A stretch of DNA of 64,000 bases, from NCBI GenBank assembly GCA_002067865.1, contig MVRC01000011.1, positions 62,001 to 126,000 of the forward strand, read 5' to 3'. Below are positions 5,818 to 58,470 of this stretch, piece after piece (positions within the stretch are counted from its first letter, which is position 1; every line of letters starts with the position of its first letter). The position numbers and the translations under genes are program-made. The notes under the pieces are model-generated. The model worked only from the letters and a program-made list of their open reading frames with translations. It searched no databases and had not been told where the DNA came from. The stretch is from Methanomassiliicoccales archaeon PtaU1.Bin124 (GTDB lineage: Archaea > Thermoplasmatota > Thermoplasmata > Methanomassiliicoccales > UBA472).

Positions 5818-5831
5818 GTGAAGGCTCGCAA

Positions 5832-5864: not shown

Positions 5865-5883
5865 CCAAGATACGGAGCCAGAC

Positions 5884-6453: not shown

Positions 6454-6454
6454 A

Positions 6455-8253: not shown

Positions 8254-8340
8254 GCGCTTCAAACCCTTTACTTTTCCATTTTCTTCTTTTTGTTGTACTA
8301 CCCTACAATTTAATATGATGGGCGGTCATTTCGCGTTCCA

Positions 8341-8736: not shown

Positions 8737-8767
8737 AAGTTCAAAAGGGACTGACCGGCGCGGCCCA

Positions 8768-29442: not shown

Positions 29443-29946
29443 TCACAAAGACCGGGCCAGATCGTTCAATGTTTCCCCGTCGATGCGATACACGGTCCAA
29501 TCGGACATCGGCCTCGCCCCCATCCGCCGGTAGAAGGCGATCGAGGTCTCGTTCGAATCCAAGCACCACCAGTCCAATCGGCCGCAATTTCTTTCCACGG
29601 CGATCTTGGCCAAGCAGGCGAACATGGTCCGGCCGATGCCCTTGCCCCTTTGCTCCTCGTTCACATAGAGGTCCTCGAGGTACAGGTTCGCCTTGCCCAG
29701 GAAGGTGGAATAGTTATGGAAGAAGAGGGCGAATGCAACGGGGCTGCCATCAAGCTCTCCGATGATGACCTCCGCCTGCCGCTTCGCGATGATCGAATCG
29801 TAGATGTCAGCCTTCGTCGCTGACACCTCCGGCAACAGTCCCTCGTACTCGGCCAGTTTCATAATGAAGCTCAGGATGAGATCGACGTCTCCCTCATCGA
29901 CCGACCTGATCACAAATCCAGGGACCTTCGTTTCATATCTGACCAT
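29443..29946 (-). CDS. GNAT N-acetyltransferase, SSAT (diamine acetyltransferase)-like
   Basis: About 167 residues from the ATG at 29946 (earlier ATGs at 30009 and 30036 are possible). The GNAT core is clear: NLYLEDLYVNEEQRGKGIGR binds acetyl-CoA, and WWCLDSNETSIAFYRRMGA then WTVYRIDG follow. The LYLEDLYV and N-xxSIxFYxRxGA patterns match spermidine/spermine and thialysine N-acetyltransferases more than generic RimI types. It may acetylate a polyamine. That fits the homospermidine synthase gene 116 bp downstream on the same strand. Confidence 0.8.
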   Translation of the reverse strand: MVRYETKVPGFVIRSVDEGDVDLILSFIMKLAEYEGLLPEVSATKADIYDSIIAKRQAEVIIGELDGSPVAFALFFHNYSTFLGKANLYLEDLYVNEEQRGKGIGRTMFACLAKIAVERNCGRLDWWCLDSNETSIAFYRRMGARPMSDWTVYRIDGETLNDLARSL

Positions 29947-30051
29947 GCGGAAGAGGTCCATGCCGTGGGCGGGGATAACACTTTTCACCACCTGCCTAGT
30001 TTCGTTCATCCGCCCGGAACCATATTGACGGTCCATCGCTCATTCACATTC

Positions 30052-30471
30052 ATGTCAGAACTGGAAAGGAACGTGCCTGCAAGTGGTTCGTGCTCCAAGT
30101 ATGAGGAGGCGGACCTCTACCTCCGCCTGTTCTCTATGTATTCCTCGGAGGAGCTGTCCTCTGCGTTCAGATGGTTCCATTCCAGGTTCAACGCGAAGGA
30201 CCTTGACGATTTTGAGAAGGAGTGTCCGCCTGGCAGTGTGGAGAGGTCGAATTTCTGGAAGATCGGAAATTTCTTCGATCTCATCGGAACGTTACTGAAG
30301 CGGGAATATCTGGACAAGGAACTGTTGATCGATCTCTGCCCCGACGATGTTCGGTCATATTGGACGAAGGCCTCTCCTCTGGTCAAGGAGATGCGACCGA
30401 AGTATAACGACCCCCGGCTCTATGCGGACCTGGAACTGCTCTATGAGGAGATACAGAAGGAAATGGCATGA
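30052..30471 (+). CDS. Unknown helical protein (139 aa)
   Basis: The acidic, all-helical protein (DLYLRLFSMYSSEELSSAFR; FFDLIGTLLKREYLDKELLI; LYADLELLYEEIQKEMA) has no metal motif or membrane helix. Its composition, with regularly spaced aromatic residues, resembles small DUF4760-like proteins, but I make no assignment. It is convergent with the GMC oxidoreductase gene. Confidence 0.6.
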   Translation: MSELERNVPASGSCSKYEEADLYLRLFSMYSSEELSSAFRWFHSRFNAKDLDDFEKECPPGSVERSNFWKIGNFFDLIGTLLKREYLDKELLIDLCPDDVRSYWTKASPLVKEMRPKYNDPRLYADLELLYEEIQKEMA

Positions 30472-30488
30472 TCTGCCATTGACCATCC

Positions 30489-31778
30489 TCAGTCGCTCTG
30501 GTCACTTTTTTCCACCGCGCTGCAGACCCGCGACGCAATGGCTGCGGCCAGCACCATGGTGGGCATGCCCTGTGACCTCGGGACCAATGATAGATCGGCC
30601 ACCCAGAGGTTCTCGGGAAGGACGGCTGGATGCATAGTTACGACCTCCTCACGGTGCAGCGGCACGGTTCCTCCGAGGTGGCCGCCGTTGATCATGCCTA
30701 ACGTGATCGGCCCCTTCACCCCGGCACCGGACATGATATCCTCCACCAGTTCGCCAGCCTCCTTTATCGAAGCCTCGTCCTTACCGCTCAATGCCTTCTC
30801 CACATTCCCATCAGCGTCGACATGTCCGTTAGCCTCATCGGCCAGCTTGACCATGACCCCGACCCTGTCATCGATCCCGACCTTGCGCCATGCTGGTTGG
30901 AAGAAATGGGATAGGAGGTCCAGATAGGGGGAGATTATGTAGTCATCCTTCTTGGCATACCAGACCATCGGCATCTCGTCCAGTTGTTCCGATTCTTTCT
31001 TCATGCCGCCGAAGGTGAACACAGGGTCGATCCACAGCGTGTCGCTGATCGAGGTTCCCGTCCGTCTCAGTATCTGGGCCGTGCCGATCCCGCCTGCGGC
31101 CAGAACCACCCGGTCCGCTTTGATCGTTGTCACGCCAGAGCTGGTCACGGCATGAACCCCGACCGCATGGCCGTCCTCGATCATGACATCCCGGACCTCG
31201 TGACCGTAATGGACCTGGGCCCCTGATGCCATGGCCTCCTCGACCCATGCCCTCGAGTCCCATCTGGCGCCCATGGCGCAACCAAGTTCGCACATGCCGC
31301 AGCAGATGCAACGGTCCTGGCTGAGGGCCTTGGGCGTCAAGGCCGGGTTCAACCCCATCTCTTGGGCCACATCGAACATTTGGCTCGTGGTCGGCCTCCA
31401 TCTCTCTCTAGGAACGATGCATAGGTGGAGCGACTCGATGATCTCTGCGAACTCAGTGCTCAGATCAAGCCCGATCTCCTTCAGCCCCTTGTCGGCCGGT
31501 AGTATGTTGCCGCAGGAGATGGTCGTGCAGCCCCCCGCCCCCCTCACCATGACCAGATCGCCCGATCTGGCGGTCCTCATATGCGGGAACAGCCTGGAAA
31601 TGGTCCTCTCGCTCCCCAGCAGCCCGGTCCTTCTCAGCGCCCCGGCGTGCATGACCTTCCGGGTCAGCGCCTTGAACGGGTCACCCGCCTCTAGAACGTG
31701 CACCTCATGGCCAGCGGCGCTAAGCTTCTTCGCTGCCATCGCTCCGGCGGCGCCTGTTCCGACCACCAGGACCCTCAT
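30489..31778 (-). CDS. GMC-type FAD oxidoreductase with an Fe-S-like Cys motif
   Basis: The 429-residue flavoprotein starts MRVLVVGTGAAGAMAAKKLS (FAD GxGxxG). The GMC family signature region VRGAGGCTTISCGN and the C-terminal NLWVADLSLVPRSQGM follow. Residues 157-167 (CICCGMCELGC) hold five cysteines with CX2CX2CX3C spacing, like a [4Fe-4S] site. It probably oxidises an alcohol or reduces a double bond, passing electrons to an iron-sulfur partner. The ATG at 31778 overlaps the end of the preceding gene. It is last in a four-gene operon with an acyl-activating fusion. Confidence 0.82.
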   Translation of the reverse strand: MRVLVVGTGAAGAMAAKKLSAAGHEVHVLEAGDPFKALTRKVMHAGALRRTGLLGSERTISRLFPHMRTARSGDLVMVRGAGGCTTISCGNILPADKGLKEIGLDLSTEFAEIIESLHLCIVPRERWRPTTSQMFDVAQEMGLNPALTPKALSQDRCICCGMCELGCAMGARWDSRAWVEEAMASGAQVHYGHEVRDVMIEDGHAVGVHAVTSSGVTTIKADRVVLAAGGIGTAQILRRTGTSISDTLWIDPVFTFGGMKKESEQLDEMPMVWYAKKDDYIISPYLDLLSHFFQPAWRKVGIDDRVGVMVKLADEANGHVDADGNVEKALSGKDEASIKEAGELVEDIMSGAGVKGPITLGMINGGHLGGTVPLHREEVVTMHPAVLPENLWVADLSLVPRSQGMPTMVLAAAIASRVCSAVEKSDQSD

Positions 31779-32368
31779 GCCCCCTCCCAGACCAGCTCCG
31801 CCTCGCAAGGGCATCGGCTGCCGTCGTTCTTTCTTATGAACCTCATGCTCATCCTCGGGTTCAGACCCTCCACCACTCCTTCGTCCATGGCGCTCATCAC
31901 GGCGCAGGTGGAGGCCCCATATCCATCGGCCAGCGAGCAACGGTTCACGATCATCCTGACATCACTGCCGACCTCTACCATCTCAAACTCTATTCCCAGG
32001 ATGCGGTAAAGCAGCCTTGCCGCTGCCATCAGGTCATTCTGACCGTCAGATAGTCTCAGTTCGGAACGGATCATCTTTCCCAGCTCTACACCGGAGCTAT
32101 GCAAGGCATCTCTTCCCAGTGCCATGCCTTTCTCTGCTCCTTTCCTCTCGATCAGTATCCTGACCAGCGTGGCATGCTTCCGCGCCATGGCAACACGGAA
32201 TTCTCCGGGGGTCCTAGGCATCGTCCTATGCATGATCGGGTCCGTCATGTTTTCATCCGAGATCAGTCCAGAGAGGGTCGTGGAAACCTTTCCATCGACC
32301 AGCTCCAGCCATTTGATCATGAGCCTGCCCCTGATGAACGCCGAGGCCAGTTTCAACCTGAAACTCAT
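31775..32368 (-). CDS. Unknown protein in lipid-like operon (197 aa)
   Basis: The soluble protein has a basic helical N terminus (RLKLASAFIRGRLMIKWLEL), a central helical part, and a C-terminal sheet-like part with cysteines (VNRCSLADGYG, RCPCEAELVWEG). The C-terminal half resembles the small alpha/beta 4-vinyl-reductase or L-2-amino-thiazoline-carboxylate-hydrolase folds, but I cannot decide. It overlaps both neighbours by 4 bp, so it is an integral part of the operon and may be a ligand-binding or carrier-like partner of the acyl-ligase fusion. Confidence 0.6.
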   Translation of the reverse strand: MSFRLKLASAFIRGRLMIKWLELVDGKVSTTLSGLISDENMTDPIMHRTMPRTPGEFRVAMARKHATLVRILIERKGAEKGMALGRDALHSSGVELGKMIRSELRLSDGQNDLMAAARLLYRILGIEFEMVEVGSDVRMIVNRCSLADGYGASTCAVMSAMDEGVVEGLNPRMSMRFIRKNDGSRCPCEAELVWEGA

Positions 32369-35121
32369 CTCCTGGCCTCCCTGCCGACATGCAGCGCCCC
32401 TTCCGACCTCGGTGCATCGGAATAAAGGGATGCCACCACCGTCGAGAACCTGCTCATGAGCACCTTTCGCTTCAGCTTCATGTTGGCGGTCATCTCACCC
32501 TTGCCGATGTCCAGGTCGTACGGCAGGACCGCCCATGCCTTGGGCCTCTCCGGGTCAGATAGCTGTCTTCCCACCTTCCCCATCTGCTCATCCCAGTAAC
32601 TTCCTGGTCTGCCTCCATATTCCGGTTCGACCCAGAGCAACGCGGTACCGAACGGCCGGCCGTCCACGATCAGCATCGCCTCCACCACACCGGGTATCTG
32701 GCGCAATGCCGATTCCACCTTGGCCGGCATGATGTTCTTGCCATAGGAGTTGATCATGACCTCCTTGATCCGGCCCTCGATGGCCAAACTTCCATCGGCG
32801 GTGATCCGCCCCAGGTCTCCGGTGCGGAGCGGACCCAGCATACGTTCGGACAGCGGATAGTATCCCCTCATGAGCTGCTTCCCGCTCACCAGGATCTCAC
32901 CCTCCGGTGAGATGCTGACCTGTGTATCAGGCAGCGGTTCTCCCACGGTGCCGATCCGGTTCCTTCCCACCTGGTTCAGCGTGATCAATGGCGCCTCTGT
33001 CAGCCCATAGGCGTTGTGCACCTCGATACCCAGCGAGCGAAGTTTGAGCAGCAGGCCATCATCGCAGGGGGCGGAGCCGACGATCAACTGGCTGCACCTG
33101 TCCAGACCCGCTCTCTTCAACATCATCCTGCCCATGCGGAGCTTCAGCCAGGAGCTTTTACCATTAGAGTCATCGGAATAAAGCTTGAACAGCGACGACC
33201 CCTCGAACGCATCCCACAGCTTCTCGTAGAATCGGGGGACGGAGAAGAACACGTTAGGCCTCACCTCCTTGAGAGCTGGGCGAAGCTGTCGGAACTCTTC
33301 GAGGAAGTTGAGGTCTAGAGCGGCAGGGGCATAATAAGGAGCGTAGGTCCCCAGGATCCCTTCGACCACATGGTTCATCGGCAGGAACGAAAGATAGCTG
33401 ATGTCGCTATTTCGCGCCGTCCATGGCGGAAGGGAAGCGATGGCCTCGGCTATCCATCTCAGGTTGCCGTGGTCGAACACCACGCCTCTGGGCCGGCCGG
33501 TCGTGCCCGAGGTGTATCTTATCGTGGCAATGTCGTCGAACTCGACCATGGGCATATCGATGTCCCTATCACCCTTAGCCAGGATATCGGCCCATTCCAT
33601 TGCCCCATCGATCGACCCCTCCCTCAGGAAGGAGATGCATTTCACGTCCGGAAGCATCGATGGCAGCTTTTCAAAGGCAGAACAACCGATGAACAGCATC
33701 TTTGCCTTGCAGTCACCGATGATCTCGACGATCTCGGATGCCGGGGAGGTGTAGTAGAGTGGAACGCTCACCGCTCCGGCCAGCCCGATGGCCGATTCGA
33801 TGATTAGGTAGCGCACTGAGTTGAGGCCGACGACCGCGACCCGATCCCCCTTTTCAATGCCAGTGGCCAGCAGCGCCTTTGCCAGTCGTTGGATGTTCTC
33901 CTTGACCTCCACGGCATCGCTCTCGACCCTTTTGCCATCTATGACATTGGCCAGCCTGACCTTCCGTCTGGTCCGGCCCAGGCGGAACAGGACCTGCTCA
34001 TGCACGGTCCTCTCGCTGCGATGCATGAAACCATATCTGCTGCCGAAGGCTAGCGCCTTATCCATCATCGGTTTCCATTCGAACACCGCCTTGCCGAGGA
34101 TATCGTCCATCGTGTCCCGGCGGAAGACCTGGCCCTGCTCCAGGTAGGACATGAGCGGTCGCATGTCGCCCTCGCTTCCTTTTGCCGCGGCCCTCTTCCC
34201 GGAAGATACGATCAGCGCATTCCTCATCGTGTCGGGAAGACGCAAGAACCGGGCCTTGGGCAGGTCCACGGACAGCTCCCTCTTGGCCCACTCCCTGGTG
34301 AAGTCCACCAGGTCCTTCACGGAGGGAAGACGTTCGTGCGGTGGTATCAGATGGGCCGTCCTGCCCTCCCCTCTATGGTCTATGGTGATGCGGACCATGG
34401 CATCAGCCGCCACATCGCCTGGCACAAGGTTCACCTTGGCGTCAGGTTCGATGGGCATCGTTCTCAGGCGGCCTGTCAGATAGAGCCGCAGCGGGTAGTA
34501 CAAAGTGTTGAACGTCCTGATCCACCCGGTCTTGGAATCGCCCACGATCATTGCTGGGCGGAACATGGAAAAGGGAAGGCCAGATTTTCGGACGACCGTC
34601 TCGCCTTCGGCCTTCGACCTTTCATAGTTGCTGGAGAAATCGGAACCGATCGCGTCCTCCGAGATCGTTCCCTTGGTCTGGCCACACACATAGGCGGTCG
34701 AGATGTGCGAGAAGCGAAATAGCCCATGGTCCTCATGGATCTCCCTGGCTAGACCGATCAGGTTCTCCACACCGTGCACATTGGTCTTGCGGAGGGCGTC
34801 GACGTCCTTGTTCAGATCGAGGTCGGCAGCGGCGTTGATGATGATGTCGCTTCGCTTGATGATCAAGCTTTGGTCCTCTGGCTTCAATCCCAGTCCGTCC
34901 AGACAAATATCTCCAGGTATGGGAACGACCCTCTTTTCCACCTGGTCGGCCAGTTCGGGCCAGTCCCACCACGCTCTTCTCAATCGATTGGCCGCCTCCT
35001 CCCTGGAGCGGGAACGGACCAGCACGATGACCTCGACATCCTCGTCCATGAGCCTTCGGGCGATGAGCGTTCCCAGGAATCCGGTGCCGCCGGTCAGCAG
35101 AACGCCCGGCCTACCCGCCAT
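32365..35121 (-). CDS. Fusion: extended SDR (thioester-reductase-like) + long-chain acyl-CoA synthetase
   Basis: The 918-residue protein has two enzymes. Residues 1-370 form an extended SDR of the NAD_binding_4 kind, with GGTGFLG at 11-17 and Y166-xxx-K170. Residues 375-900 form an adenylating (ANL) domain with YTSGTTGRPRG at 536-546, YGLTE at 705-709, TGDLGR at 767-772 and the A10 lysine in NMKLKRK near 882. No carrier-protein (phosphopantetheine) domain lies between them. Carboxylic acid reductases have the opposite order with a carrier. The protein likely activates a long-chain acid and reduces or modifies the acyl product. ATG at 35121 is preferred; it overlaps the upstream gene. Confidence 0.85.
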   Translation of the reverse strand: MAGRPGVLLTGGTGFLGTLIARRLMDEDVEVIVLVRSRSREEAANRLRRAWWDWPELADQVEKRVVPIPGDICLDGLGLKPEDQSLIIKRSDIIINAAADLDLNKDVDALRKTNVHGVENLIGLAREIHEDHGLFRFSHISTAYVCGQTKGTISEDAIGSDFSSNYERSKAEGETVVRKSGLPFSMFRPAMIVGDSKTGWIRTFNTLYYPLRLYLTGRLRTMPIEPDAKVNLVPGDVAADAMVRITIDHRGEGRTAHLIPPHERLPSVKDLVDFTREWAKRELSVDLPKARFLRLPDTMRNALIVSSGKRAAAKGSEGDMRPLMSYLEQGQVFRRDTMDDILGKAVFEWKPMMDKALAFGSRYGFMHRSERTVHEQVLFRLGRTRRKVRLANVIDGKRVESDAVEVKENIQRLAKALLATGIEKGDRVAVVGLNSVRYLIIESAIGLAGAVSVPLYYTSPASEIVEIIGDCKAKMLFIGCSAFEKLPSMLPDVKCISFLREGSIDGAMEWADILAKGDRDIDMPMVEFDDIATIRYTSGTTGRPRGVVFDHGNLRWIAEAIASLPPWTARNSDISYLSFLPMNHVVEGILGTYAPYYAPAALDLNFLEEFRQLRPALKEVRPNVFFSVPRFYEKLWDAFEGSSLFKLYSDDSNGKSSWLKLRMGRMMLKRAGLDRCSQLIVGSAPCDDGLLLKLRSLGIEVHNAYGLTEAPLITLNQVGRNRIGTVGEPLPDTQVSISPEGEILVSGKQLMRGYYPLSERMLGPLRTGDLGRITADGSLAIEGRIKEVMINSYGKNIMPAKVESALRQIPGVVEAMLIVDGRPFGTALLWVEPEYGGRPGSYWDEQMGKVGRQLSDPERPKAWAVLPYDLDIGKGEMTANMKLKRKVLMSRFSTVVASLYSDAPRSEGALHVGREARR

Positions 35122-36343
35122 GGCAGCATCCTCTCTCTGCCAGGAACTCACCCAGCAGCACTCTGTTCTTCGCCATGCGGGCTATCTGCTCGTCATAGCC
35201 CTTCCGGATGGTGGCCTTGATCCTGGCGCCGTCCTGCATGATCGTATCGACCATCTTCCTGGCCCCTTCCCAGTCGACCCTCTGTCCTGCTCGGAAGAAC
35301 AGCTCGTCGCGGATACCTATCTCAGCAAATAGATCGTCCAGCCTGCGGTCATGGCCGATGGCCATCATGGGAACGGCGGAGGCCATCGAAAGCACCGCCG
35401 CATGATACCTCGATGTGATGAGAGCGTCCAGCCGTCTCAAGCAGTTCGTCATCTGGAATGCGTTCAGCTCCCTGGAGCTCCTGATGACAGCGCATTCGGG
35501 ATGCTTCATCTTGCTAAGCACTTCGCGGGCCAGCGGTTCATCCAGGCTTTCCATGCTGATGAGGACGACATCCTTGTCATATTTCTCCACGATCTCATCG
35601 GCCAGCTTGGCGAACCCGTCCGCCAGGAGCCTGGATGCGAGCACGCGGTCCTTCGACCTGGAGAAGTAATAGGGCCAGCGATAGCAGTTGCATTTCCGAC
35701 CGAAAGGCCTAGCGACGACTGGCCAGAGATTGAAATCGACCAGCGCCATGCCAACCCTTCCATTGCATTCCTTGCCGTTGAGACGGGTCCCGTTCGTCCC
35801 GCCCAGGCCGAAATCGAACGCTGGGTCGGCAGTGACCTTGATCGGGGCGGTCACGCCCCACTTGTTCAGCCTCTCTGCTGCGTTGAACGTCCTGGTCACG
35901 ATAAGATCGGTCTTGGATGCGTGCTCCTTGACCTTGCCCACGTTCTCAGGCCTCAGGTCACCGGCATCGACCGCGTAGGCCAGGCTCGACCTGTTCGCGC
36001 TGTCGGCGCATCTGGTGGCCCATAGATACGCGCTCAAGAGGGAGGAGGTCCAGGTGTCCATGTAACAGCTGCCCTCCACCAGCATCATCAGGTCGCTCTG
36101 CTTGATCAATCTCCTCAAGGTGAGATGATAGATGGATGGGATCGATTCGATATGCAGGTGTTCGTCCTCGTTGACGTACCTGCGCAGATTCTCCACATTC
36201 AAAGATGGAACGGTTATGTGGGTGTCCGGGCCGCACACCCTTCTGATGTCATCAATGATCTTCAGCAGCCTCGCCTCAGACCCGGTGTTGTTCGCGCCAT
36301 TGTAACCAACCAGCACGATCCTCATATCCTTACCATTGTCCAT
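35111..36343 (-). CDS. Polysaccharide pyruvyl transferase family protein
   Basis: The 410-residue protein starts RIVLVGYNGANNTGSEARLL, the N-terminal motif of the CsaB/polysaccharide pyruvyl transferase family, and ends its core with LITSRYHAAVLSMASAVPMM, the conserved SxRxH region. Family members ketalise sugars of surface polymers with phosphoenolpyruvate; related GT-B proteins have other roles. It is the first gene of an overlapping four-gene operon with the acyl-ligase fusion, suggesting synthesis of a modified surface glycolipid (inference). A terminator-like hairpin separates it from the upstream gene. Confidence 0.82.
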   Translation of the reverse strand: MDNGKDMRIVLVGYNGANNTGSEARLLKIIDDIRRVCGPDTHITVPSLNVENLRRYVNEDEHLHIESIPSIYHLTLRRLIKQSDLMMLVEGSCYMDTWTSSLLSAYLWATRCADSANRSSLAYAVDAGDLRPENVGKVKEHASKTDLIVTRTFNAAERLNKWGVTAPIKVTADPAFDFGLGGTNGTRLNGKECNGRVGMALVDFNLWPVVARPFGRKCNCYRWPYYFSRSKDRVLASRLLADGFAKLADEIVEKYDKDVVLISMESLDEPLAREVLSKMKHPECAVIRSSRELNAFQMTNCLRRLDALITSRYHAAVLSMASAVPMMAIGHDRRLDDLFAEIGIRDELFFRAGQRVDWEGARKMVDTIMQDGARIKATIRKGYDEQIARMAKNRVLLGEFLAERGCCHGG

Positions 36344-43167: not shown

Positions 43168-43950
43168 GTGAGGTTATTTTCATCGTCAAGTCCATCACTG
43201 AGCGTGGTCAACAACGTCACGCCCATATCCCAACTGAAGCGGCAGATCGGATGGCTGGGTGGATCTTGGAAGTGGCTGCTCCAGAACAAGATGGTCCCTC
43301 AGGCAGGATGCCGCGGAAGGCCGTCCGCTCTGGACGTTGGCTGCGGTCCGGGACTGGTCATGGAACTTTTCTCTCCGGATCTGGATGTCAAGGGCATTGA
43401 CATCGACCCGGAGGCGGTATCGGCGGCAAGGGAACGGGGACTGGACGTCATCCAGGCAGATGCGGCCGACCTGCCCTTCGATGATGGGAGCTTCGACATC
43501 GTCTACTGTTCGTTCACATTGTTATGGGTCGAGGATGCGCTTCAAGCGGTCAAGGAAATGGCGCGAGTGTCCAGAGGTGTCGTGGCCTGCCTGGCGGAAC
43601 CGGACTATGGCGGAAGGGTCTGTCATCCTCCCGAGGTGGCCTCGTTGGACAGGTACATCATCGGATCGCTCATCGAGGAAGGTGCTGACCCATTCATAGG
43701 GAGGCGACTGGGAGGTCTGATGGAGGCGACCGGGCTGAAGGTCGAGTCCGGGGTCCACTCCGGCATTTGGGCGCCGGCCCAGCTGAGGGCCGAGGCGGCA
43801 CAGGAGTGGGGGTCGATCAGGCAGGCCGTAGGCGATAGGGCGAGCCCCGACGAACTGGAACTGGCCCGCAAGGCTTGGGATGCTGCGCTGGCTGAATGCA
43901 CGCTCTTCCTCTTCAACCCGGTCTTCTACGCCATCGGTCGCAAGGCATGA
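43168..43950 (+). CDS. SAM-dependent methyltransferase (type 11)
   Basis: The 260-residue protein has motif I ALDVGCGPGLVMELF, the acidic post-I strand GIDIDPEAV, DAADLPFDDGSFDIVYC and the helix with WVEDALQAVKEMARV: a class I methyltransferase of the UbiE/SmtA kind. The substrate is unknown. GTG at 43168 is the earliest start; GTG at 43204 is possible. It follows the acyltransferase gene and may act on its product. Confidence 0.85.
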   Translation: MRLFSSSSPSLSVVNNVTPISQLKRQIGWLGGSWKWLLQNKMVPQAGCRGRPSALDVGCGPGLVMELFSPDLDVKGIDIDPEAVSAARERGLDVIQADAADLPFDDGSFDIVYCSFTLLWVEDALQAVKEMARVSRGVVACLAEPDYGGRVCHPPEVASLDRYIIGSLIEEGADPFIGRRLGGLMEATGLKVESGVHSGIWAPAQLRAEAAQEWGSIRQAVGDRASPDELELARKAWDAALAECTLFLFNPVFYAIGRKA

Positions 43951-45300
43951 TCACATGCTGGAGTGACGGTCCAGACAGATGTAATCCCCATGTTCTCGGG
44001 CCAATGGGCAGCCCCCGCCGCAGACGTCCTTCATGCCGCAGGTGGGGCACTTGCCATCCAGATACCTCCTCTCCCTGATGCGCTTGCACAGGTCGTGGTC
44101 CCAGATCTTCTCCCATGGATCGCCCAGTATGTTGCCTAGCGGCTCATAGAAGCTCTGGCAGGGCAGCACGGTGCCGTCCGGCTCGACCGCCATGTTCAGC
44201 GAGCAGGCGGTGCACTGCTTGATCCCGAGGCCAAAGTTGATCGGGTTGAGCTCGTGATAGGGCGTCGGGGTGTACCAGATGAGCCTGACATGGTTCTCGT
44301 CCGCGATGCGCTTCAGCAGCATCAGGGCCTCGGTCAGCTCTGCAAAGCTCACCCCCTCGGCGTCCACTCCCTTCCCTGAGCGGATGATGCCGTTGAATGC
44401 GACATGCTCCACCCCGAGCGAGATCAGGAAGCGCATCGTCGCCTCCAGATCCCCCAGGTTGGAACGCATGATGGTCGTGTTGGTGCTGACGTACATCTTT
44501 TCCTGCAGGGCCACCTTCAGGCCGGCGATCGTCTCCTTCCAGGCCCCTACCTCGCCCACCAATCTATCATGCAGCGGTGCATTGGACGATAACACAGTGA
44601 TCTGCACGTGGTCCAGTCCCTTCACGACCAGGTCATGGAGGTAGCCATCCTTGGCCAGGCTGCGCCCGTTGGTCACCAGGCCAGTGACCTGGCCGTGCAA
44701 CTCTGACCTTGCCACCAGGTCCGCCAGCCCGTCGAACAGCGTGGGTTCTCCTCCGGTGAAGACGATATGGGGGATACCGAGGTCCCAGGTCTTGTCGATG
44801 ACCTGCTTCCACTGCTCCACCGTCAGCTCCTTCAGCTCCCTGGGCTCGTTGTAGCAATGGGAGCATTTGTTCTGGCAGCGATAGGTGAGCGCCAGGTCCA
44901 TGCGGTAAGGCGCCGGGAAGTCATCCTTGCCAATTGTCGGCTTGTCCGGGCCGATCATGCGGAGGATCTCATCCTTTCCGGCCAGATAGGTCGTCAGCTG
45001 TCTCTTCATCGAGGCGAAATGCTCTGCTGCCCTCGATCTGTCCAGGCCCTTGTACCTTCGCCGCATGTACTTGACCGCGGCCTTCTCCGTCCTGTCCTCC
45101 AAGGCGCAGCGCACATAATCGAGCGCGGTGCCGTTCAGGAAGATGATGCTGGAAGCATCCACCAATAATGAGCCAGTGCTGGCCGAATCGACGCGGAGGT
45201 GGAACCGGTGGCCCTTTAGATCGCCGGTGCCATCGAACTTGTACACCCCCTGTCTCAGGCCCTTGCCGTACAGCTCCCTCCACCACTGCTTGAACGTCAT
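43951..45300 (-). CDS. Radical SAM/SPASM peptide-modifying-type enzyme with PqqD-like N terminus
   Basis: The 449-residue protein has the radical SAM CX3CX2C motif (C142, C146, C149) and GGEP (183-186). Its C-terminal SPASM domain is complete: C-x9-G-x4-C (SLNMAVEPDG region), then CPTCGMKDVCGGGC (CX2CX5CX3C) and a last Cys. Residues 25-90 resemble a PqqD-like peptide-recognition domain. This domain set is that of RiPP-maturing enzymes making thioether or C-C links (family knowledge). The ATG overlaps by 4 bp the end of a membrane-protein gene whose tail is (Cys-Ala)x6, the likely substrate. It converges on the methyltransferase gene, with no gap between the ORF ends. Confidence 0.88.
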   Translation of the reverse strand: MTFKQWWRELYGKGLRQGVYKFDGTGDLKGHRFHLRVDSASTGSLLVDASSIIFLNGTALDYVRCALEDRTEKAAVKYMRRRYKGLDRSRAAEHFASMKRQLTTYLAGKDEILRMIGPDKPTIGKDDFPAPYRMDLALTYRCQNKCSHCYNEPRELKELTVEQWKQVIDKTWDLGIPHIVFTGGEPTLFDGLADLVARSELHGQVTGLVTNGRSLAKDGYLHDLVVKGLDHVQITVLSSNAPLHDRLVGEVGAWKETIAGLKVALQEKMYVSTNTTIMRSNLGDLEATMRFLISLGVEHVAFNGIIRSGKGVDAEGVSFAELTEALMLLKRIADENHVRLIWYTPTPYHELNPINFGLGIKQCTACSLNMAVEPDGTVLPCQSFYEPLGNILGDPWEKIWDHDLCKRIRERRYLDGKCPTCGMKDVCGGGCPLAREHGDYICLDRHSSM

Positions 45301-46940
45301 CTTCCCCCTCCAGCACAAGCGCAGGCGCATGCGCAGGCACAGGCGCAGTGACCGCCCCCGCCCGAGAACCCACTTCCATCACCGGTCGTGACGGGTATCG
45401 GGTTCGTGACGCTCACCACATCCCTCGATAGGCCGCGCATGTCGTTCACCAGGTTATTGGTCGCCGATTGCACCTGGGAGACATAGTCCTGTGCAGCCTT
45501 GCCGATGTCCAGGCCCGGACCGGACGCTCCCGTGCCTCCATGCGGGATCAGTATGGGCAGGGGGAAGACCTCCCGCCTCATCCTTCCCGGGTAGTCCTTG
45601 TCGAGCATCATCCAGTCGCTCCTCTCGTCCAGGGACTTGGCTATGTCCTCCGGCGTGTTCGCTTCCTTGACCTGTTGCCAGGCCTTCTCGCAGATGACCC
45701 CGTAATAGTTCTGGGTGGCCTCGTGGTCGAACCCCTTCATCTTCTGCTGGGTGGCCTGGATCAGATGCACCAGGGTGTCCTTCAGCTTGGTCCGGTCCAT
45801 GACCTGGTCGGAGCGGATTGCCTCGAGGTATTCCGTCTCGTACTGCCTGTCGCTGCTGCTCGCCAGTTTCTTGAGCCGCATCGGGGCGTCCTGGGAGACG
45901 ACCTCCACCTTCCCCTTCATGATCAGCGAGAACAGGATCATCGTGGCCACCATCTCCAGCGGCCTCTCCAGCACCACCGCCGCCTCGACCGCGGTCAGGT
46001 CCCGTCTCGGTCCGGCGCCGATCACGTTCATCTCCGGGTCGTAGTAATCCTTGCTCCTCCTCCGTGCCTGGGCGATGCTGCCGAACAATCCCAAGGTGAT
46101 TATGAACCCGAAGATCAGCACGGGCAATAGGGTTGAGATCAAGGTGAAGAGATCGTCCCAGAAGCTGGGGGCCTCCTGAAGGAAATACCTGTCCACGTAG
46201 CCCATCGGGAATCCCACGCCCACATCATATGCGCCGGTCTCCTGTTCGTTCGGGCTGACATTGTTCCTGGTCCAGGTCGCCACCACCTTATTGATGGAAC
46301 CGTCCCAGGTCAGACTGTCGTATGGGTTGCTCTCCAGCCACATGGCCTGCGAGGCGTTGTTGAACCCGGCAGGGAAGATGATCTTCTCCACCAGCAGACC
46401 CGTGTTCCCCACCTGATATGAAGGATCGAACCAGGTGGGCTTGAACTTGACACCTACCGTTCCATTCACCAGTGTGTTGATGTAGACCATGTGGGGATTG
46501 TTCACATGGAAGAACAGCTCGAACGAACCCGCCGTCTGAATGAGCGTCTGCAGGTAATTGCCGAACTCCACGGCCATGCCTGGTGTGACATACGGGGAGT
46601 CATGTACCTGAGCCGGTGAATAATCATGTCCCTGGACCCTGATTGATGCGGTGGCCGAGCTACCGTCATAGTACTTGTTCGGCATGCCGATGTCGACCCC
46701 ATCCAGATAGCCTACGTTGGTGAAGACGAAGCGGTAATCTATGTCGACGCTGCCATCCTTTTGGACGGTCACGTTGACATCCTCCTCCGTGAGCGAGAAC
46801 GAATAATTGGCCGCGGCCACGTTCTGCTGCCCTCCCAGGCCTAACAGGTTCATCCCGCCCAGAACCACTATGAGCGCCAAGGCCAGCACTGCCACCTTGG
46901 CAGTGCAAGAATTACGAAACCGGTCCATGACCATCACCAT
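45297..46940 (-). CDS. DUF2207-like membrane protein ending in a (Cys-Ala)x6 tail
   Basis: About 547 residues. A signal/anchor helix (VAVLALALIVVLGG) is followed by an extracellular beta-rich domain (about 45-260), a membrane helix (LISTLLPVLIFGFIITLGLF) and a cytoplasmic part of about 250 residues with YYDPEMNVIG, as in DUF2207 proteins. The C terminus is a Gly/Ser linker, then GGGGH, six Cys-Ala dipeptides and GGGR. Codons in the repeat alternate TGC/TGT and GCC/GCA/GCT, so the repeat is kept at protein level. Starts at 46940, 46934 or 46928 are possible. Coupled to the radical SAM gene; the tail is a probable modification target. Confidence 0.82.
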   Translation of the reverse strand: MVMVMDRFRNSCTAKVAVLALALIVVLGGMNLLGLGGQQNVAAANYSFSLTEEDVNVTVQKDGSVDIDYRFVFTNVGYLDGVDIGMPNKYYDGSSATASIRVQGHDYSPAQVHDSPYVTPGMAVEFGNYLQTLIQTAGSFELFFHVNNPHMVYINTLVNGTVGVKFKPTWFDPSYQVGNTGLLVEKIIFPAGFNNASQAMWLESNPYDSLTWDGSINKVVATWTRNNVSPNEQETGAYDVGVGFPMGYVDRYFLQEAPSFWDDLFTLISTLLPVLIFGFIITLGLFGSIAQARRRSKDYYDPEMNVIGAGPRRDLTAVEAAVVLERPLEMVATMILFSLIMKGKVEVVSQDAPMRLKKLASSSDRQYETEYLEAIRSDQVMDRTKLKDTLVHLIQATQQKMKGFDHEATQNYYGVICEKAWQQVKEANTPEDIAKSLDERSDWMMLDKDYPGRMRREVFPLPILIPHGGTGASGPGLDIGKAAQDYVSQVQSATNNLVNDMRGLSRDVVSVTNPIPVTTGDGSGFSGGGGHCACACACACACAGGGR

Positions 46941-47302
46941 TTCGGAGACTCCTCAAGCGTTGTGACGGTGCCGCAATATGGGCAGGTGATGACGACCCCG
47001 CCTTGAACGACCTTGATGTCCTTCTCAGAAAGGGTGGCCCCGCAGCTGCGGCACTTCAGCTCCTTCCGCTCGGTCTGACCGGTCCCCTCCATCTTCACAT
47101 TGAAGTTCTGGGTGACCAGGGTCGGCTTGGCCGCTTGGATCTTCTGGCTGCGGTAGTTGTAGAACAACAGCACGACCGCCAGAAGTACCAGCACCGCTCC
47201 GGTCATGATGTTCTGAGCTCCCCCCGCGATGAGGAAGATCGCACCTAATATGATCAGCACGATGGCAACGAAGACGATGAGGCCTTCAACGATCCTATTC
47301 AA
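46934..47302 (-). CDS. Two-helix membrane protein with C-terminal zinc ribbon
   Basis: The 122-residue protein has two membrane helices (IVFVAIVLIILGAIFLIAGG and MTGAVLVLLAVVLLFYNY), then a soluble part with CRSCGATL and CPYCGTVT, a zinc ribbon. It begins the operon leading to the DUF2207-like protein and the radical SAM enzyme; its TGA overlaps a start codon of the next gene (TGATG). It may be a structural partner of the membrane complex. Function inferred from position only. Confidence 0.7.
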   Translation of the reverse strand: MNRIVEGLIVFVAIVLIILGAIFLIAGGAQNIMTGAVLVLLAVVLLFYNYRSQKIQAAKPTLVTQNFNVKMEGTGQTERKELKCRSCGATLSEKDIKVVQGGVVITCPYCGTVTTLEESPKW

Positions 47303-52212: not shown

Positions 52213-55200
52213 GTGGACAGCCAACGCTCTTCAGCGAAAGCAGTAGGTAGCAAGATCATCAGCTTTTTCTTTGCCGCATCGTTCATTTTCTCGGCGATCG
52301 GCATAGCATTGCCAGGCATCGCACTGGCCGGTGAGGGGACGATCGATGACGGATCACCCTCCGATGCCCCCATATTGGGCTATACGAACAGTCAACCATT
52401 GATCATTGACGATGATGCCGAGCTTGCCGCCGCCTCCTCTTCCGGATCTGGCACATCCTCCGACCCATATGTCATCACCGGCCTGTCCATCGATGCGGCA
52501 GGCGGTTACAAGGGCATTTACCTCGGGAACATCACCAAACATGTCGTCGTCCACGACTGCCTCATCAGAAATGTGGGTCTCCTATACTCATTCATCAGCG
52601 ACATGACCGGTTCCGGGGTCGCCATATACCGCACGGCCAACGATGTCGTCACCATACGGAACAACATCATCCAGGACTCCGCCCGGGGCATCAACGTCTA
52701 TGAATCGAACGGTGTCACGATCAGCGAGAACACCATCACCAACTGCAACCTGGTCGGCATCCTGCTGGCCACCGTCGACGGCTGCTCCCTCTTCCGCAAC
52801 GATGTCTCCGGCAGCTTCAACTGGGGCATTCTGGTCTATGGAACCGCCAACCGGGACGAGGAGAGCACGAACGTCAAGATCATGCAGAACAAGGTGCACG
52901 ACAACGGAGGAGACGGCATCTCTCTGGCCAATGCGGATTTCACCCTCATTCACGGCAACATGATTTCCGACAACGATGGACTGGCGATCAACATCGCCAA
53001 CAACGGCGTCCGTTGCAGCGACGGAACGATGGTCTACGCCAACTCCTTCTGGCGCAATTCCGGCAGCACCTCCGCCTATGACGTGAACCATGTCCAGGTG
53101 AGCGACTCAGGCAACAGCAGCAAGTACAACGTCAATGTCAACGGGGAATTGAACGGCAATTACTGGTATGACCTCTCCGAGTACGACCTCAGTCCGAACG
53201 GTTCGCTGTCGGTCGACGTCCCCATCGCCGGCACGGGCATGTTCTACGACCGTAACCCCTCCGGCATCCCCGTCAACCACCTTCCGTTCCAGATTGCCGG
53301 CGAAGATGGTGAGGCCTCGTTCCTTTCGATCATCGACATCGATGGCATCTACGGCTCTGGCACAGTGGCCGACCCCTATGTCCTGAAGGACCTCTGGATC
53401 AATGCCCAGGGAGGCCGTTTCGGCATTTATTTCAACGGCTCGGCCAATTGGGCCATTCCTGCCAACATCACCCTCGACTCGGCCAAGGTGTCCTATGTCC
53501 AGGACGACACGGGCGGATACGATGGTTCTGGCATATACATAAACGATACTGGCAGGGTCGCCGTCTCCGACATCGACAACCGCATCAGGTTGGTCGGATG
53601 CGAGGCCACCCGCAACCTCTACGGCATCAAGCTGGACGATGTGACTGGAGTGAACGTTACCGACTGCGTGGCGAACGCCAACAACATCACCGGGATCTAT
53701 GGAAAAGACCTTCTCAGCACCGCCATCGAGAACAACCAGTGCCAATACAACGGCGGATGGAACGTCACTGGCTACGGCATGTTCTTCATCTATGTGACTC
53801 AGCCCACCCTCATCTCTGGGAACAACTGTTCCTACAACCACGGCCTGCGCATGGACGGGACCACCGGTACCGCATATGCCTATGGCATCTACGCCATCTA
53901 CTGCAGCGGCCTGACCTTGAAGGACAATCAGGTATGGGGCAACTACGCGCTGGGCAACTATTCCGTGCCCAATTCCTATCTCCACACCTATGCGGTCGGT
54001 ATCCACATAGGCTACTCCACCTCCTGCCTGCTCATTGGAAATGTGGTCGCGACCCAGAGCGCCAGGCAGACATACTCAGGCGGTGGATATGCTTACGTAT
54101 ATGGCATCTCCACGGCAGAGAGCTCCCTCATAACAATGGAGAACAACCGCATCTTCGAGAATTCGGCCCACGACTCCATTTTCAACATGGCCTATGCAAT
54201 GAGGATCTTCTACACGGACGATGCGGTGGTGCGTAACAACGTCATCTCTCGGAACAATGGCTTCGATGCCAAGAAGACCAATGTAACTAACGCCAAGGGG
54301 CTATACGTCTTCGGCAGCCACAATGGCCTATACTCTCATAACCTGGTAGAGAACAACTACCAGCATGGGGCGTCATCTGGCTCGTCCTATGGGTTCGATC
54401 TGCTCTACAGCAACAACAATCTGCTCGTGGCAAATGTCGTGAAGAACAACAACGAGACTGGGGCGGGAAACGGGTATGGCATTTCCTCCTATCAATCGGA
54501 TAACAACCGGTTCTATCACAACGTCATCACCGGCCACGTAAGCTTGGGCCTTTGGTTCACCACCGGTAGCGATGGCAACTATGTGGTCTACAACGAGTTC
54601 TACCTCAACTGCGGTTCGACCTCTTCGTTCACGGCGGGCAAGGCACAGGCAGCGGACGAAACCGGGACCAACCACTGGTACGTGGACTACCGGGGCAACT
54701 ATTGGTTCGACTGGACCAGCCCCGACAACGATCACAACGGCATCATCGACTCGCCTTACGTCATGGACTCCGACCCGGTCACAGACCCGTTCCCGCTGGC
54801 CGACCCATCCGTCCTTGCTCCGTTCCGCATCGACAGCGATGCAGAGCTCATCGACATGGCCGAGAGCAGCGGCTGGACCGGGACCGGGACCGCCTCCGAT
54901 CCGATCGTCATCAGCAACTGTACGATCAGTGCGGGAGGAGATAGCGCCGCCATATACATCGGCAACACCACACTGCACATCATCATCCGCGACTGCCAGC
55001 TGACCGCAGCGGACCAGTATTGGACCAGCCTGTACCATTCGGCCGCCGGCCTGATCCTGCTGGGCGTTCAGGACGTCGACGTCCTGGACTGCACCATCAC
55101 CGGCAATTCTCGTTCGGGCATATCCTTGATGTCCGCCTCGTTCATCCGGATCGATGGCTGCACCATCTCTGGCAACGGGCAGATGGGTGCTGACACGAAC

Positions 55201-58200
55201 ATGTACGGTTACGGCATCAAGGCCCTGTACGGCACGAACGTGGCCATCTCCAACAACACCATCACCGGCAACGGTCCGGTGCCCGACGACCCCGCCCATA
55301 CGAGCAATCTCGGCACTGGTGTCATGGTGAGCGACGCACATGACTATTCCATTGAGAACAATGTGATAAGCGGTACTGTGGGCTATAACGCCTACGGCAT
55401 CAATATGGACTTTGTTTCCAGCTCCTCCGTCAAGGGCAACACGATCATAGAGAACGGCTTTTCTGGTGCCAACTCGGCTGGACTATACCTGACGAGCAGC
55501 GACTCCTTGAAGATCACTGGCAATGACATACGTGGAAACGGCAATCTGTCCACCAATGGCATCGGCATCTGGATGGAGACCACCACCGTCAGCGAGATCT
55601 CGCACAACGCCATCTCGTTCCATGACGGCAACGGGGCGTACCTGGCTTCGAACAGCAATATGAACACGCTCACCGAGAACGAGTTCTCACAGAACCTGAA
55701 GTTCGGCGTCAGCGTTGCCAGCAGCCAAGAGAACGTGATCTATGGAAACACCTTCCTCTCCAACCACGGCAGCACCGCGACCTATGATACGAACCATGTC
55801 CAGGCATATGACAACAGCGCCGTGGGGAACTCATGGTGCGGTACCATGGGCAACTACTGGAGCGACCTGACCGGGCCGGACGCCGATCAGAACCTGCGTG
55901 CGGATGGCGGGTATCCGATACCCTCCAGTCCGCTCAATGTCAAGGACCTGAACCCGACCATCCTTCCGTTTGGCTGGATCAGCATAACCGGTGATGCAGA
56001 CCTGCTCGTCCAGGCAACCGAGCGGGGCTGGGTCGGGGATGGGAGCGAGGCGAACCCGATCTTGATCGAAGGGCTCGCCCTGAACGGGTACTTCAGCCCC
56101 GGGGCGGTGCTCACGATGACCGGCACCACGCTCCACACGGTGATCCAGAACAATCTGCTGGCATTCGCCAAGTCAGCGGCCCATTCCCAGATACTTACCG
56201 TCAGCACCCAGAACATCATCGTCTCCGGGAACGTATTGCGTTATGCCAACTATGGGCTGGTCGACCAGATGAGCTCCGGCATCATCATTTCGAACAACAA
56301 CATAAATGATACCTGGCAGACCGGCATCGTGCTAATTGGCAGCATAGGGGCAGAGGTCAGAGCTAACACCATAACCGGCACGGTCGTGACCGCCACCGCT
56401 TCGGGGATCGCGGTCATGAGCGCGCATGACTGTCTGGTCTTCAGCAACGTCCTGGATGACAACAAGTATGGCATACGCGGCGAGATATCTGCCTATGCCA
56501 ACAAGTTCTACCAGAACTCCATAAGCGGGTCCACCCAGGTAGCCCTGTTCTTCGACTCCACCACACATACCAACCAGGTCTTCCAGAACTGGCTGAAGGA
56601 CAACGGCGACGGCACGCATCAGGCCATGGATGACAGCGCCCTGAACGCATGGTCGAATGACCGCGTCGGTAACTATTGGTATGGCCAGGTGACCCCCGAT
56701 GCGAACGGCGATGACATCGTCGATGCGGCCATCCCGATCAGCGGGGTAGGAGGAGCTTCCGACATGTTCCCGCTGGCGAGCATGGTCTCCAGGCCCGTTT
56801 CCTTGAGCGCGTCCATGGCCGGCGATAAGGTTCAGCTGTCCTGGACGGCCAGCAACTACTCCGTGCTGGACTCTCACGTAATGTACCGGGTGTATCGCTC
56901 GGTGGATGGAGGGCTGTTCTCATTGAGGACGGTCACGACCGACCTCTCGATCTTGGAAGATTATGTCGCGGGAGCGGCCAATATCAGATATCAGGTCGAG
57001 GCCGCCACGAGCTATGGCACCAGTGCCCGGTCCAGGACCGTTTCGATGAACGACGCCGAGGCGCCGGTCGTGCAGATCACCTCGCCGGCAGAAGGTTCGA
57101 CCATAACGACCTCGAACCTGCTGGTGGAATGGCACGCCTGGGACAACCAGAGCGGGCTTACCAACATGAACGTGAGGATCGACGGCGGGGACTGGGTTCC
57201 AAAATACCTGCAGACCAGCCACATCTTCTCCGGCCTGTCCCAAGGCCATCATAAGGTCGAGGTCATGGCGATCGACGGAATATTCCTCTCCACGATCGCT
57301 TCGGCGAACTTCACGGTAGAGCTACCACCTGTTCTGCACATCATCGCTCCGGCCGCTTCCAGCACCTTCGGTGTCGACTCTCTGACGGTGAGATGGGAGG
57401 GCTGGGCCAACCAGAGCGGCATCGACCATTACGAGATCAAGGTGGATGGCGGCGCCTGGACCAGTGTCAGCACTGCCGTTTCTTACCAGTTGACGGACCT
57501 GACGGAGGGGCAGCACACGATCTATGTCAAGGCTGTGTCGGGAATCTCCATCGAGACAATCGCCTCTGTCGCATTCACCTTGGCGGATGACCCATGGGTC
57601 AGCATCACCTCCCCCAAGGGTGTCATCAACACCACCATGGTCAATATCGTGTGGAACGGCGGGGATAATCTCAGCTCCATAGCCTATTATCTGGTCAAAT
57701 TGGACACTGGCGTCTGGACCAATGTCAGCACGGCCACCTCTTACACGGTCTTTGCCACGGAGGGCGATCATAATATCTATGTGAAGGCGGTGGATGCGGT
57801 CGGCCACGAGGCCATGGCACAATCGACGTTCACGCTCGATTCCACTGCGCCCTCTGTTACTTCCTACTCCCCCAACGGAGTGGTGACATCCCTCAACCCG
57901 ACGATCAGCATCGTCTTCTCCGAACTGATGAACCAGAGCTCGGTCGTGGTCACCATATCAGGGGTCGGCGTCAACAAGGTCTGGAGCGGTACCACCTTGA
58001 CCATCACGTTGGCGGCGCCATTGACGGCCGGTGCCTCCTACACGGTAATGGTGAACGGGAAGGACCTGGCAGGAAACGCAATGATGCCGGTGCAATGGAG
58101 CATCAGTACCGGGGCCGGTCAATGCTTCGTCCAGGGACACGTGCAAGGGACCGACGGGCAACCCATATCCGGAGCCACGGTCACTTGCACCGGAGGACAG

Positions 58201-58470
58201 AGCGCTCAGACCGATGTGAACGGCAATTACTCTTTCGAGCTTCCGCCTGGATCGTACACGATCTCGATCACCAAGACCGGATATGAGCCGATAGAAATTC
58301 AGGTCGAACTGTCGCCTGGAGAGATAGAATCGGTGGTCCGCACCATGACGTCCACATCGGCAAGTGGTAACAACGGCAGCGATGGGACGATGATGATCGT
58401 GGCCATTGTAGGGATAGCAGCCGTCGCTGGTGCTGGTGGGTTCCTCTACCTGAGGTCAAGGAAGAAGTGA
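52213..58470 (+). CDS. Giant secreted surface protein with beta-helix modules
   Basis: 2085 residues. A signal peptide (ISFFFAASFIFSAIGIALPG) is followed by four parallel-beta-helix (NosD/PbH1-type) modules starting near residues 62, 358, 869 and 1253. They are rich in GITxxN-type repeats, each ending with a GNYW-D motif and an Asp/Asn-rich loop. Then come an Fn3-like domain (about 1529-1616), three Ig-like repeats (about 1617, 1705, 1793), a Big_5-like domain (about 1876), a carboxypeptidase-regulatory-like domain (about 1971-2050), a membrane helix (about 2060-2080) and a basic end (RSRKK). It is likely an adhesin or surface-layer enzyme anchored by the C-terminal helix. GTG is the start codon. 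Confidence 0.86.
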   Translation: MDSQRSSAKAVGSKIISFFFAASFIFSAIGIALPGIALAGEGTIDDGSPSDAPILGYTNSQPLIIDDDAELAAASSSGSGTSSDPYVITGLSIDAAGGYKGIYLGNITKHVVVHDCLIRNVGLLYSFISDMTGSGVAIYRTANDVVTIRNNIIQDSARGINVYESNGVTISENTITNCNLVGILLATVDGCSLFRNDVSGSFNWGILVYGTANRDEESTNVKIMQNKVHDNGGDGISLANADFTLIHGNMISDNDGLAINIANNGVRCSDGTMVYANSFWRNSGSTSAYDVNHVQVSDSGNSSKYNVNVNGELNGNYWYDLSEYDLSPNGSLSVDVPIAGTGMFYDRNPSGIPVNHLPFQIAGEDGEASFLSIIDIDGIYGSGTVADPYVLKDLWINAQGGRFGIYFNGSANWAIPANITLDSAKVSYVQDDTGGYDGSGIYINDTGRVAVSDIDNRIRLVGCEATRNLYGIKLDDVTGVNVTDCVANANNITGIYGKDLLSTAIENNQCQYNGGWNVTGYGMFFIYVTQPTLISGNNCSYNHGLRMDGTTGTAYAYGIYAIYCSGLTLKDNQVWGNYALGNYSVPNSYLHTYAVGIHIGYSTSCLLIGNVVATQSARQTYSGGGYAYVYGISTAESSLITMENNRIFENSAHDSIFNMAYAMRIFYTDDAVVRNNVISRNNGFDAKKTNVTNAKGLYVFGSHNGLYSHNLVENNYQHGASSGSSYGFDLLYSNNNLLVANVVKNNNETGAGNGYGISSYQSDNNRFYHNVITGHVSLGLWFTTGSDGNYVVYNEFYLNCGSTSSFTAGKAQAADETGTNHWYVDYRGNYWFDWTSPDNDHNGIIDSPYVMDSDPVTDPFPLADPSVLAPFRIDSDAELIDMAESSGWTGTGTASDPIVISNCTISAGGDSAAIYIGNTTLHIIIRDCQLTAADQYWTSLYHSAAGLILLGVQDVDVLDCTITGNSRSGISLMSASFIRIDGCTISGNGQMGADTNMYGYGIKALYGTNVAISNNTITGNGPVPDDPAHTSNLGTGVMVSDAHDYSIENNVISGTVGYNAYGINMDFVSSSSVKGNTIIENGFSGANSAGLYLTSSDSLKITGNDIRGNGNLSTNGIGIWMETTTVSEISHNAISFHDGNGAYLASNSNMNTLTENEFSQNLKFGVSVASSQENVIYGNTFLSNHGSTATYDTNHVQAYDNSAVGNSWCGTMGNYWSDLTGPDADQNLRADGGYPIPSSPLNVKDLNPTILPFGWISITGDADLLVQATERGWVGDGSEANPILIEGLALNGYFSPGAVLTMTGTTLHTVIQNNLLAFAKSAAHSQILTVSTQNIIVSGNVLRYANYGLVDQMSSGIIISNNNINDTWQTGIVLIGSIGAEVRANTITGTVVTATASGIAVMSAHDCLVFSNVLDDNKYGIRGEISAYANKFYQNSISGSTQVALFFDSTTHTNQVFQNWLKDNGDGTHQAMDDSALNAWSNDRVGNYWYGQVTPDANGDDIVDAAIPISGVGGASDMFPLASMVSRPVSLSASMAGDKVQLSWTASNYSVLDSHVMYRVYRSVDGGLFSLRTVTTDLSILEDYVAGAANIRYQVEAATSYGTSARSRTVSMNDAEAPVVQITSPAEGSTITTSNLLVEWHAWDNQSGLTNMNVRIDGGDWVPKYLQTSHIFSGLSQGHHKVEVMAIDGIFLSTIASANFTVELPPVLHIIAPAASSTFGVDSLTVRWEGWANQSGIDHYEIKVDGGAWTSVSTAVSYQLTDLTEGQHTIYVKAVSGISIETIASVAFTLADDPWVSITSPKGVINTTMVNIVWNGGDNLSSIAYYLVKLDTGVWTNVSTATSYTVFATEGDHNIYVKAVDAVGHEAMAQSTFTLDSTAPSVTSYSPNGVVTSLNPTISIVFSELMNQSSVVVTISGVGVNKVWSGTTLTITLAAPLTAGASYTVMVNGKDLAGNAMMPVQWSISTGAGQCFVQGHVQGTDGQPISGATVTCTGGQSAQTDVNGNYSFELPPGSYTISITKTGYEPIEIQVELSPGEIESVVRTMTSTSASGNNGSDGTMMIVAIVGIAAVAGAGGFLYLRSRKK

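Follow-up and report, generated by a model that had tools for sequence, protein, structure and literature searches.

Introduction

Known radical SAM peptide maturases mostly act on short precursors which are later cut free. SkfB, other sactisynthases (AlbA and RumMC) and CteB of the ranthipeptides have an RRE-like N terminus, a radical SAM core and a SPASM domain, and act on Cys-rich substrates, short peptides whose leader is cleaved. In the His-Xaa-Ser system (HxsA repeat protein, HxsB/HxsC) and the CXXX-repeat peptides of NCBIfam, a short-period repeat tail lies beside radical SAM maturases, and the rSAM/lipoprotein system (TIGR04133) pairs a SPASM enzyme with a membrane-anchored target.

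Here we describe a locus in which a membrane protein (the carrier) ending in a Cys-Ala repeat is encoded next to a radical SAM/SPASM enzyme. The window, the whole stretch of 64,000 nucleotides that was analysed, lies on contig 11 of a 2.2 Mb genome (G000). An earlier note on this DNA had proposed that the carrier tail is modified in place by the enzyme. We found that one enzyme family tracks a near-constant Cys-repeat across two domains, including Asgard archaea and rumen or gut Lachnospiraceae, and the best reading of the system is RiPP-like radical SAM/SPASM protein maturation with a full-size integral membrane precursor.

Results

The operon in the window

Translation of the window placed three minus-strand genes in an overlapping operon (Table 1), and the coordinates, the gene set and the 4-bp overlap between carrier and enzyme given in the earlier note were all borne out. 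The overlap is a shared ATGA, in which the carrier stop TGA (45299-45297) runs into the enzyme ATG at 45300. The open reading frame of the enzyme also has a longer in-frame alternative start at 45330. In another genome (G014), a TGA that was flagged within the carrier is probably the terminal stop overlapping the enzyme start, and the tail of that carrier is normal.

Elsewhere in the window, the gene at 52213-58470 (+) encodes a secreted protein of 2085 aa that combines numerous repeats of the parallel-beta-helix type with Ig-like stretches, ends in a TM anchor and looks like a surface protein. A gene run at 29443-36343 includes a fused reductase/AMP-ligase (32365-35151), an oxidoreductase (30489-31940) and a polysaccharide-pyruvyl-transferase-like protein (35111-36343), and is possibly a lipid or polymer pathway.

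Table 1. Features of the Cys-Ala tail locus, in window coordinates
Feature	Position	Strand	Basis
Membrane protein with two TM helices and a CxxC...CxxC zinc ribbon at the C terminus; opens the operon in Thermoplasmatota	46934..47302	-	
Carrier membrane protein, 547 aa	45297..46940	-	Translation, hydropathy, AlphaFold model, alignment
Tail (CA)6GGGR, presumed core/substrate; last 16 codons before the stop	45300..45347	-	Alignment and codon test
Radical SAM/SPASM enzyme, 449 aa; PqqD-like (RRE) domain at the N terminus	43951..45300	-	Translation, Pfam, motif alignment, model
SAM-dependent methyltransferase of class I (PF08241); gene converges with that of the enzyme	43168..43950	+	Conserved archaeal cassette member

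The carrier is a predicted two-helix membrane protein with a disordered tail

The carrier starts with a signal/TM helix (aa 10-35), followed by a beta-sandwich ectodomain (48-245), a second TM helix (260-297), a helical domain predicted to be cytosolic (317-512) and the tail. The AlphaFold model (pLDDT 81) has the beta-sandwich, the long second TM helix and the helical domain, and the last 30 residues are disordered in it. By hydropathy, nearly all carriers have the N-terminal and the central TM helix. By the positive-inside rule, the basic residues ARRRSK after the second TM helix would give the tail a cytosolic location, on the same side as the enzyme.

The carrier had been called DUF2207-like. 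A weak sequence match to that family does exist, but the window carrier scores 14.4 bits against a Pfam cut-off of 24.4 (PF09972/PF20990), and PF20990 matches weakly in 5 of the 33 carriers; the likeness therefore stands below the level of family assignment. A search of the PDB with the carrier returned no sequence match. In its predicted fold, the ectodomain resembles ribophorin I of the human oligosaccharyltransferase (OST) complex and the N-terminal domain found in M1 aminopeptidases (E 5e-11 to 1e-6, with low whole-chain TM-scores).

The Cys-Ala tail is kept by selection on the protein

The translated carrier carries the claimed ending GGGGH-(CA)6-GGGR; its C terminus reads ...GSGFSGGGGH-CACACACACACA-GGGR-stop, and the codons of the tail are TGC GCC TGT GCC TGC GCA TGC GCC TGC GCT TGT GCT GGA GGG GGA AGA. 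None of the 16 tail residues varies among the 33 aligned archaeal carriers, whose alignment has a mean column identity of 38%; four of the 33 have a G or CAG inserted mid-tail. Among 51 non-identical DNA sequences encoding the tail, the pairwise difference was 0.000 at codon position 2 and 0.029 at position 1, the latter all from Arg codons, and reached 0.594 (59% of comparisons) at position 3. With position 2 fixed and position 3 differing in most comparisons, the repeat is kept by selection at the protein level, as had been claimed from the mixed codons of the window.

A DNA pattern of five Cys-Ala units matched in 15 of 390 Thermoplasmatota genomes, each with two overlapping matches, and therefore each with exactly six units. 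The same pattern read backwards had no match in these 390 genomes. Repeats of the (TGCGCC)n kind do exist in GC-rich genomes, and many listed pattern matches from Burkholderiales and Streptomyces are of that kind, so a low-complexity DNA repeat arising by chance at the gene end was considered. The mixed codons, the exact length, the fixed frame and the GGGR ending oppose such an origin, and it was rejected on the codon test and the reversed-pattern control; we regard its probability as negligible. Among the matches listed in the scan across genomes, those from beyond archaea and Bacillota were mostly simple repeats of high GC content that lacked GGGR; these were set aside, and the spread to further phyla is at least that found.

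Tail variants

The canonical archaeal form is (CA)6GGGR at the extreme C terminus. The Bacillota form, (CA)6GGGRAGC[ST]xKDFYxT..., has a short extension after the tail, and some Lachnospiraceae tails have CASS/CACASS repeats ending SSGRAGC. Family f34 of the Thermoplasmatota has the tail variant CACVSCACVSSCACACACAGGGAAGC, and one Asgard group has a variant tail ending [FY]R that is nearly invariant in six of six. Repeat types other than plain CA include CASS, CACVS, CHSA and CAHSS. Constant across the variants is Cys with small or His residues and, except in family f34, also a Gly-rich (or SSG) run with Arg at or near its end. In the enzyme tree, of which the outgroup rows are long-branched and the root is unreliable, the main tail variants fall in separate enzyme clades.

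Tail and enzyme are linked across genomes

When genomes were selected by the DNA pattern of the tail, the enzyme adjoined in 15 of 15 Thermoplasmatota genomes (identity 46-77%) and in 16 of 16 Lachnospiraceae genomes. When they were selected by the enzyme, in a protein search of 390 Thermoplasmatota genomes, a Cys-repeat carrier adjoined in all 21 genomes with a close homologue (E < 1e-70, the next match being only at 3e-31); this count includes the variant tails of G368, G371 and four genomes of family f34. Selection by the enzyme at the order level gave an adjoining tail in 24 of 24 genomes. The enzyme was found in 22 of 250 Lachnospiraceae genomes, always with an adjoining carrier (16 with the canonical ending and 6 of the CASS type). 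Carrier and enzyme occur together at 83 of the 89 loci examined, a descriptive figure and no unbiased rate, as some loci were chosen through one of the two genes. The earlier note had staked its proposal on this linkage, which held over about 1,900 genome scans (with overlapping draws), one Asgard subgroup excepted.

The cassette occurs in Thermoplasmatota, Asgard archaea and Bacillota. The carrier comes first in most archaea, and the enzyme usually comes first in Bacillota and also in family f34; in the Asgard CHSA group the two genes are divergent. That adjacency outlives these changes of order and orientation argues for function and against frozen synteny.

In Asgard archaea, the enzyme (E < 1e-45) is present in 67 and the canonical tail ending in 32 of 195 genomes, and a subset of the enzyme loci was inspected. 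In three of these genomes (G774, G795 and G908) the enzyme lies with a methyltransferase on a different contig from the carrier. In three others (G782, G801 and G806) the enzyme-methyltransferase pair is present and no carrier was found, and in G766, which has a carrier, the enzyme was not found at E < 1e-45. One CHSA-group enzyme (locus L418) also has no adjoining carrier. The separation of carrier and enzyme in Asgard archaea may reflect either MAG incompleteness or a true separation.

Two congeners of the window genome, G010 and G011, are near-complete and have neither enzyme nor carrier, which indicates that the system is dispensable and its distribution patchy. Three genomes (G490, G492 and G495) have two tail matches each. 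At locus L335, a single enzyme (6387-7808, +) lies between two tail-bearing carriers on opposite strands (4983-6284, -, and 7780-9063, +).

The enzyme resembles RRE-bearing peptide maturases

The window enzyme has a CX3CX2C motif (C142, C146 and C149), scores 71.4 bits against a cut-off of 29.5 for Radical_SAM (PF04055) and is also above the Pfam cut-off for SPASM. The complete set of SPASM ligands that had been claimed is in place, with all seven cysteines located (C363, C381, C418, C421, C427, C431 and C442). Nearly all archaeal enzymes keep the seven, and family f34 aligns without the last one. Bacillota enzymes keep three of the seven, so their auxiliary clusters probably differ. One Asgard alignment row lacks several cluster cysteines. 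Locus L355 (Asgard) has tandem enzymes at 2486-3709 (+) and 3753-5153 (+), the first of which is long-branched; the sequences suggest a degenerate partner next to an intact copy.

A PqqD-like N terminus had also been proposed. Pfam did not detect a PqqD domain in the window enzyme (P0001) by sequence alone, but PqqD (PF05402) matches 14 of 54 aligned homologues, above the cut-off in L139, and the AlphaFold model (pLDDT 86.7) starts with strands followed by three helices, of the RRE type. The homologues and the predicted fold thus place the enzyme with the RRE-containing maturases. The closest solved structures are SkfB, PqqE and SuiB by profile and SkfB, SuiB and CteB by fold, with SkfB as the best PDB match (profile E 1.4e-34, fold E 2e-18). 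Among the best 25 NCBIfam families for each of five enzymes, none reaches its curated cut-off; the named families below it include PqqE, NirJ, AhbD, AlbA, SkfB, HxsC and mycofactocin.

These fold matches bear on what the enzyme might do. Structures of anaerobic sulfatase-maturating enzymes with bound Cys peptides are also close fold matches, so the enzyme could turn Cys into another residue such as formylglycine. We consider this very unlikely, since no sulfatase-like protein is involved, six to eleven successive target cysteines would be unusual, and the motif that those enzymes recognise in sulfatases is Cys-X-Ala/Pro-X-Arg.

Another possibility is that the enzyme epimerises the tail, with alternate residues becoming D-amino acids and the resulting D/L peptide presenting all thiols for metal. 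The strict two-residue period of the repeat would fit this, as would the 1,3 pattern in which the epimerase PoyD proceeds from the C- towards the N-terminal part (PMC8326336). The fold matches of the enzyme include EpeE, which is a radical SAM epimerase with two clusters. We think epimerisation unlikely: EpeE ranks well below SkfB, SuiB and CteB, and the four- and five-residue variant repeats (CHSA, CASS and CAHSS) indicate that a period of two is not essential to the system.

A methyltransferase and a zinc-ribbon protein accompany the pair in archaea

Clustering of neighbouring open reading frames gave four conserved archaeal families, namely the carrier, the enzyme, the zinc-ribbon protein and a class I methyltransferase. 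The window methyltransferase (PF08241, 76 bits) has a stop codon that abuts the enzyme stop; neither this gene nor the spread over two domains appears in the earlier note. In 22 of 23 Thermoplasmatota loci (counted without family f34) and also in 12 Asgard loci, a methyltransferase adjoins the enzyme. Its gene converges with that of the enzyme in most Thermoplasmatota and runs in the same direction in Asgard archaea. The family has a conserved CLAEPDYGGR-like motif. The zinc-ribbon protein, suggested earlier as a third component, does belong to the cassette in Thermoplasmatota: at 21 of 23 loci a homologue immediately precedes the carrier, the other two being cut by contig ends. A few Asgard loci have it too. 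In Bacillota, the conserved genes are the enzyme and the carrier only. The clustering revealed no conserved protease gene near the cassette.

The zinc-ribbon protein, the Cys-rich and in variants His-rich repeats, and the several enzyme-methyltransferase pairs apart from any carrier would also suit an unmodified tail that acts as a metal-binding or Fe-S relay ribbon serving the enzyme (clusters, electrons or localisation), with the true substrate elsewhere. This appears improbable to us, as the enzyme family matches RRE-bearing peptide maturases, the pairing persists through shuffling of gene order, and the neighbourhood clustering gave no other conserved candidate substrate gene.

Discussion

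A near-unchanging repeat nearly always adjoins one enzyme family, and therefore the tail is very probably the substrate of the enzyme. That different tail variants accompany different enzyme clades, and that one enzyme is flanked by two carriers, also count for this, as do the closeness of the enzyme to solved peptide maturases and the disordered, predicted cytosolic tail; the loss of SPASM cysteines in Bacillota and the Asgard separations count against it. The two genes could also share a locus without an enzyme-substrate relation. From the uncleaved topology and the lack of a conserved protease gene nearby it is reasonable to infer that the tail is likely modified in place, uncleaved, on the membrane. 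The joint claim, that the tail is the substrate and stays attached to the carrier, is in our judgement quite probable.

We propose that the carrier would insert with its beta-sandwich outside, keeping the helical domain, the Gly-rich linker and the Cys-Ala tail on the cytosolic side. The enzyme, whose translation is coupled to that of the carrier, would then bind the carrier via its RRE-like N-terminal domain, and the flexible Gly linker would thread the tail into the active site, where 5'-deoxyadenosyl radicals may drive modification of the repeat cysteines. The favoured product would have thioether links from Cys sulfur to backbone carbon along the repeat. In archaea, the class I methyltransferase may also act and the zinc-ribbon membrane protein may assist. 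As the tail would not be cut off, the modified peptide would remain anchored at the cytosolic face of the membrane.

Thioether chemistry is favoured because the nearest relatives of the enzyme make thioethers, and by this analogy it may be the most likely single option, put forward tentatively. The sactisynthase AlbA does not tolerate Ala at its thioether acceptor sites, which counts against a Cys-Ala thioether, although in ruminococcin C1 Ala12 does serve as an acceptor (PMC8172795). A metal or redox role of the modified tail is speculative; the sole functional hint is that SMU.243, a DUF2207 protein of Streptococcus mutans, affects acid and oxidative stress tolerance (PMC10457818). It is possible, though we have our doubts, that the tail represents a new class of uncleaved, membrane-anchored peptide cofactor, in which a Cys-repeat on the cytosolic face is built in place by the radical SAM enzyme (with the methyltransferase in archaea) into a fixed metal or redox centre in Asgard archaea, Thermoplasmatota and gut Bacillota.

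If the modification in place is true, RiPP chemistry would extend to integral membrane proteins and the locus would point to a metal or redox site on the membrane that was not known before. With its defined 16-residue target, the pair lends itself to a direct biochemical test. In the openly licensed literature we found no description of the system and nothing relevant on DUF2207 with radical SAM, the tail peptide, Asgard RiPPs or repeat tails; no NCBIfam model covers the system, and we found no family model naming the enzyme or the carrier.

Compared with SkfB, AlbA, RumMC and CteB, the enzyme described here has the same domains and a Cys-rich partner, but that partner is the Cys-Ala C terminus of a membrane protein of about 550 aa with no sign of cleavage. 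A sactipeptide precursor is a short peptide with a cleaved leader, whereas the carrier has 547 aa and two TM helices; because of this architecture, and because the defining thioether is only proposed, we do not class the system as a sactipeptide. The HxsC model scores 67 bits on the window enzyme against a cut-off of 268, and the targets of the His-Xaa-Ser and CXXX systems are not DUF2207-like carriers. The TIGR04133 model of the rSAM/lipoprotein system scores 70.9 bits against 425. SMU.243 and its DUF2207 family share with the carrier an ectodomain, a TM helix and a cytosolic C-terminal domain, but the carrier falls below the family cut-off, and SMU.243 has no reported Cys-Ala tail or radical SAM partner (PMC10457818).

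The mycofactocin and PQQ systems are alike in having invariant C-terminal precursor residues beside a SPASM enzyme, and an argument from an invariant precursor end was earlier used to predict mycofactocin (PMC3023750). There, however, a short soluble precursor yields a small redox cofactor and no membrane-bound product. The present system departs from such cases in its large membrane carrier and its repeat, in showing no sign of cleavage and in spanning two domains of life.
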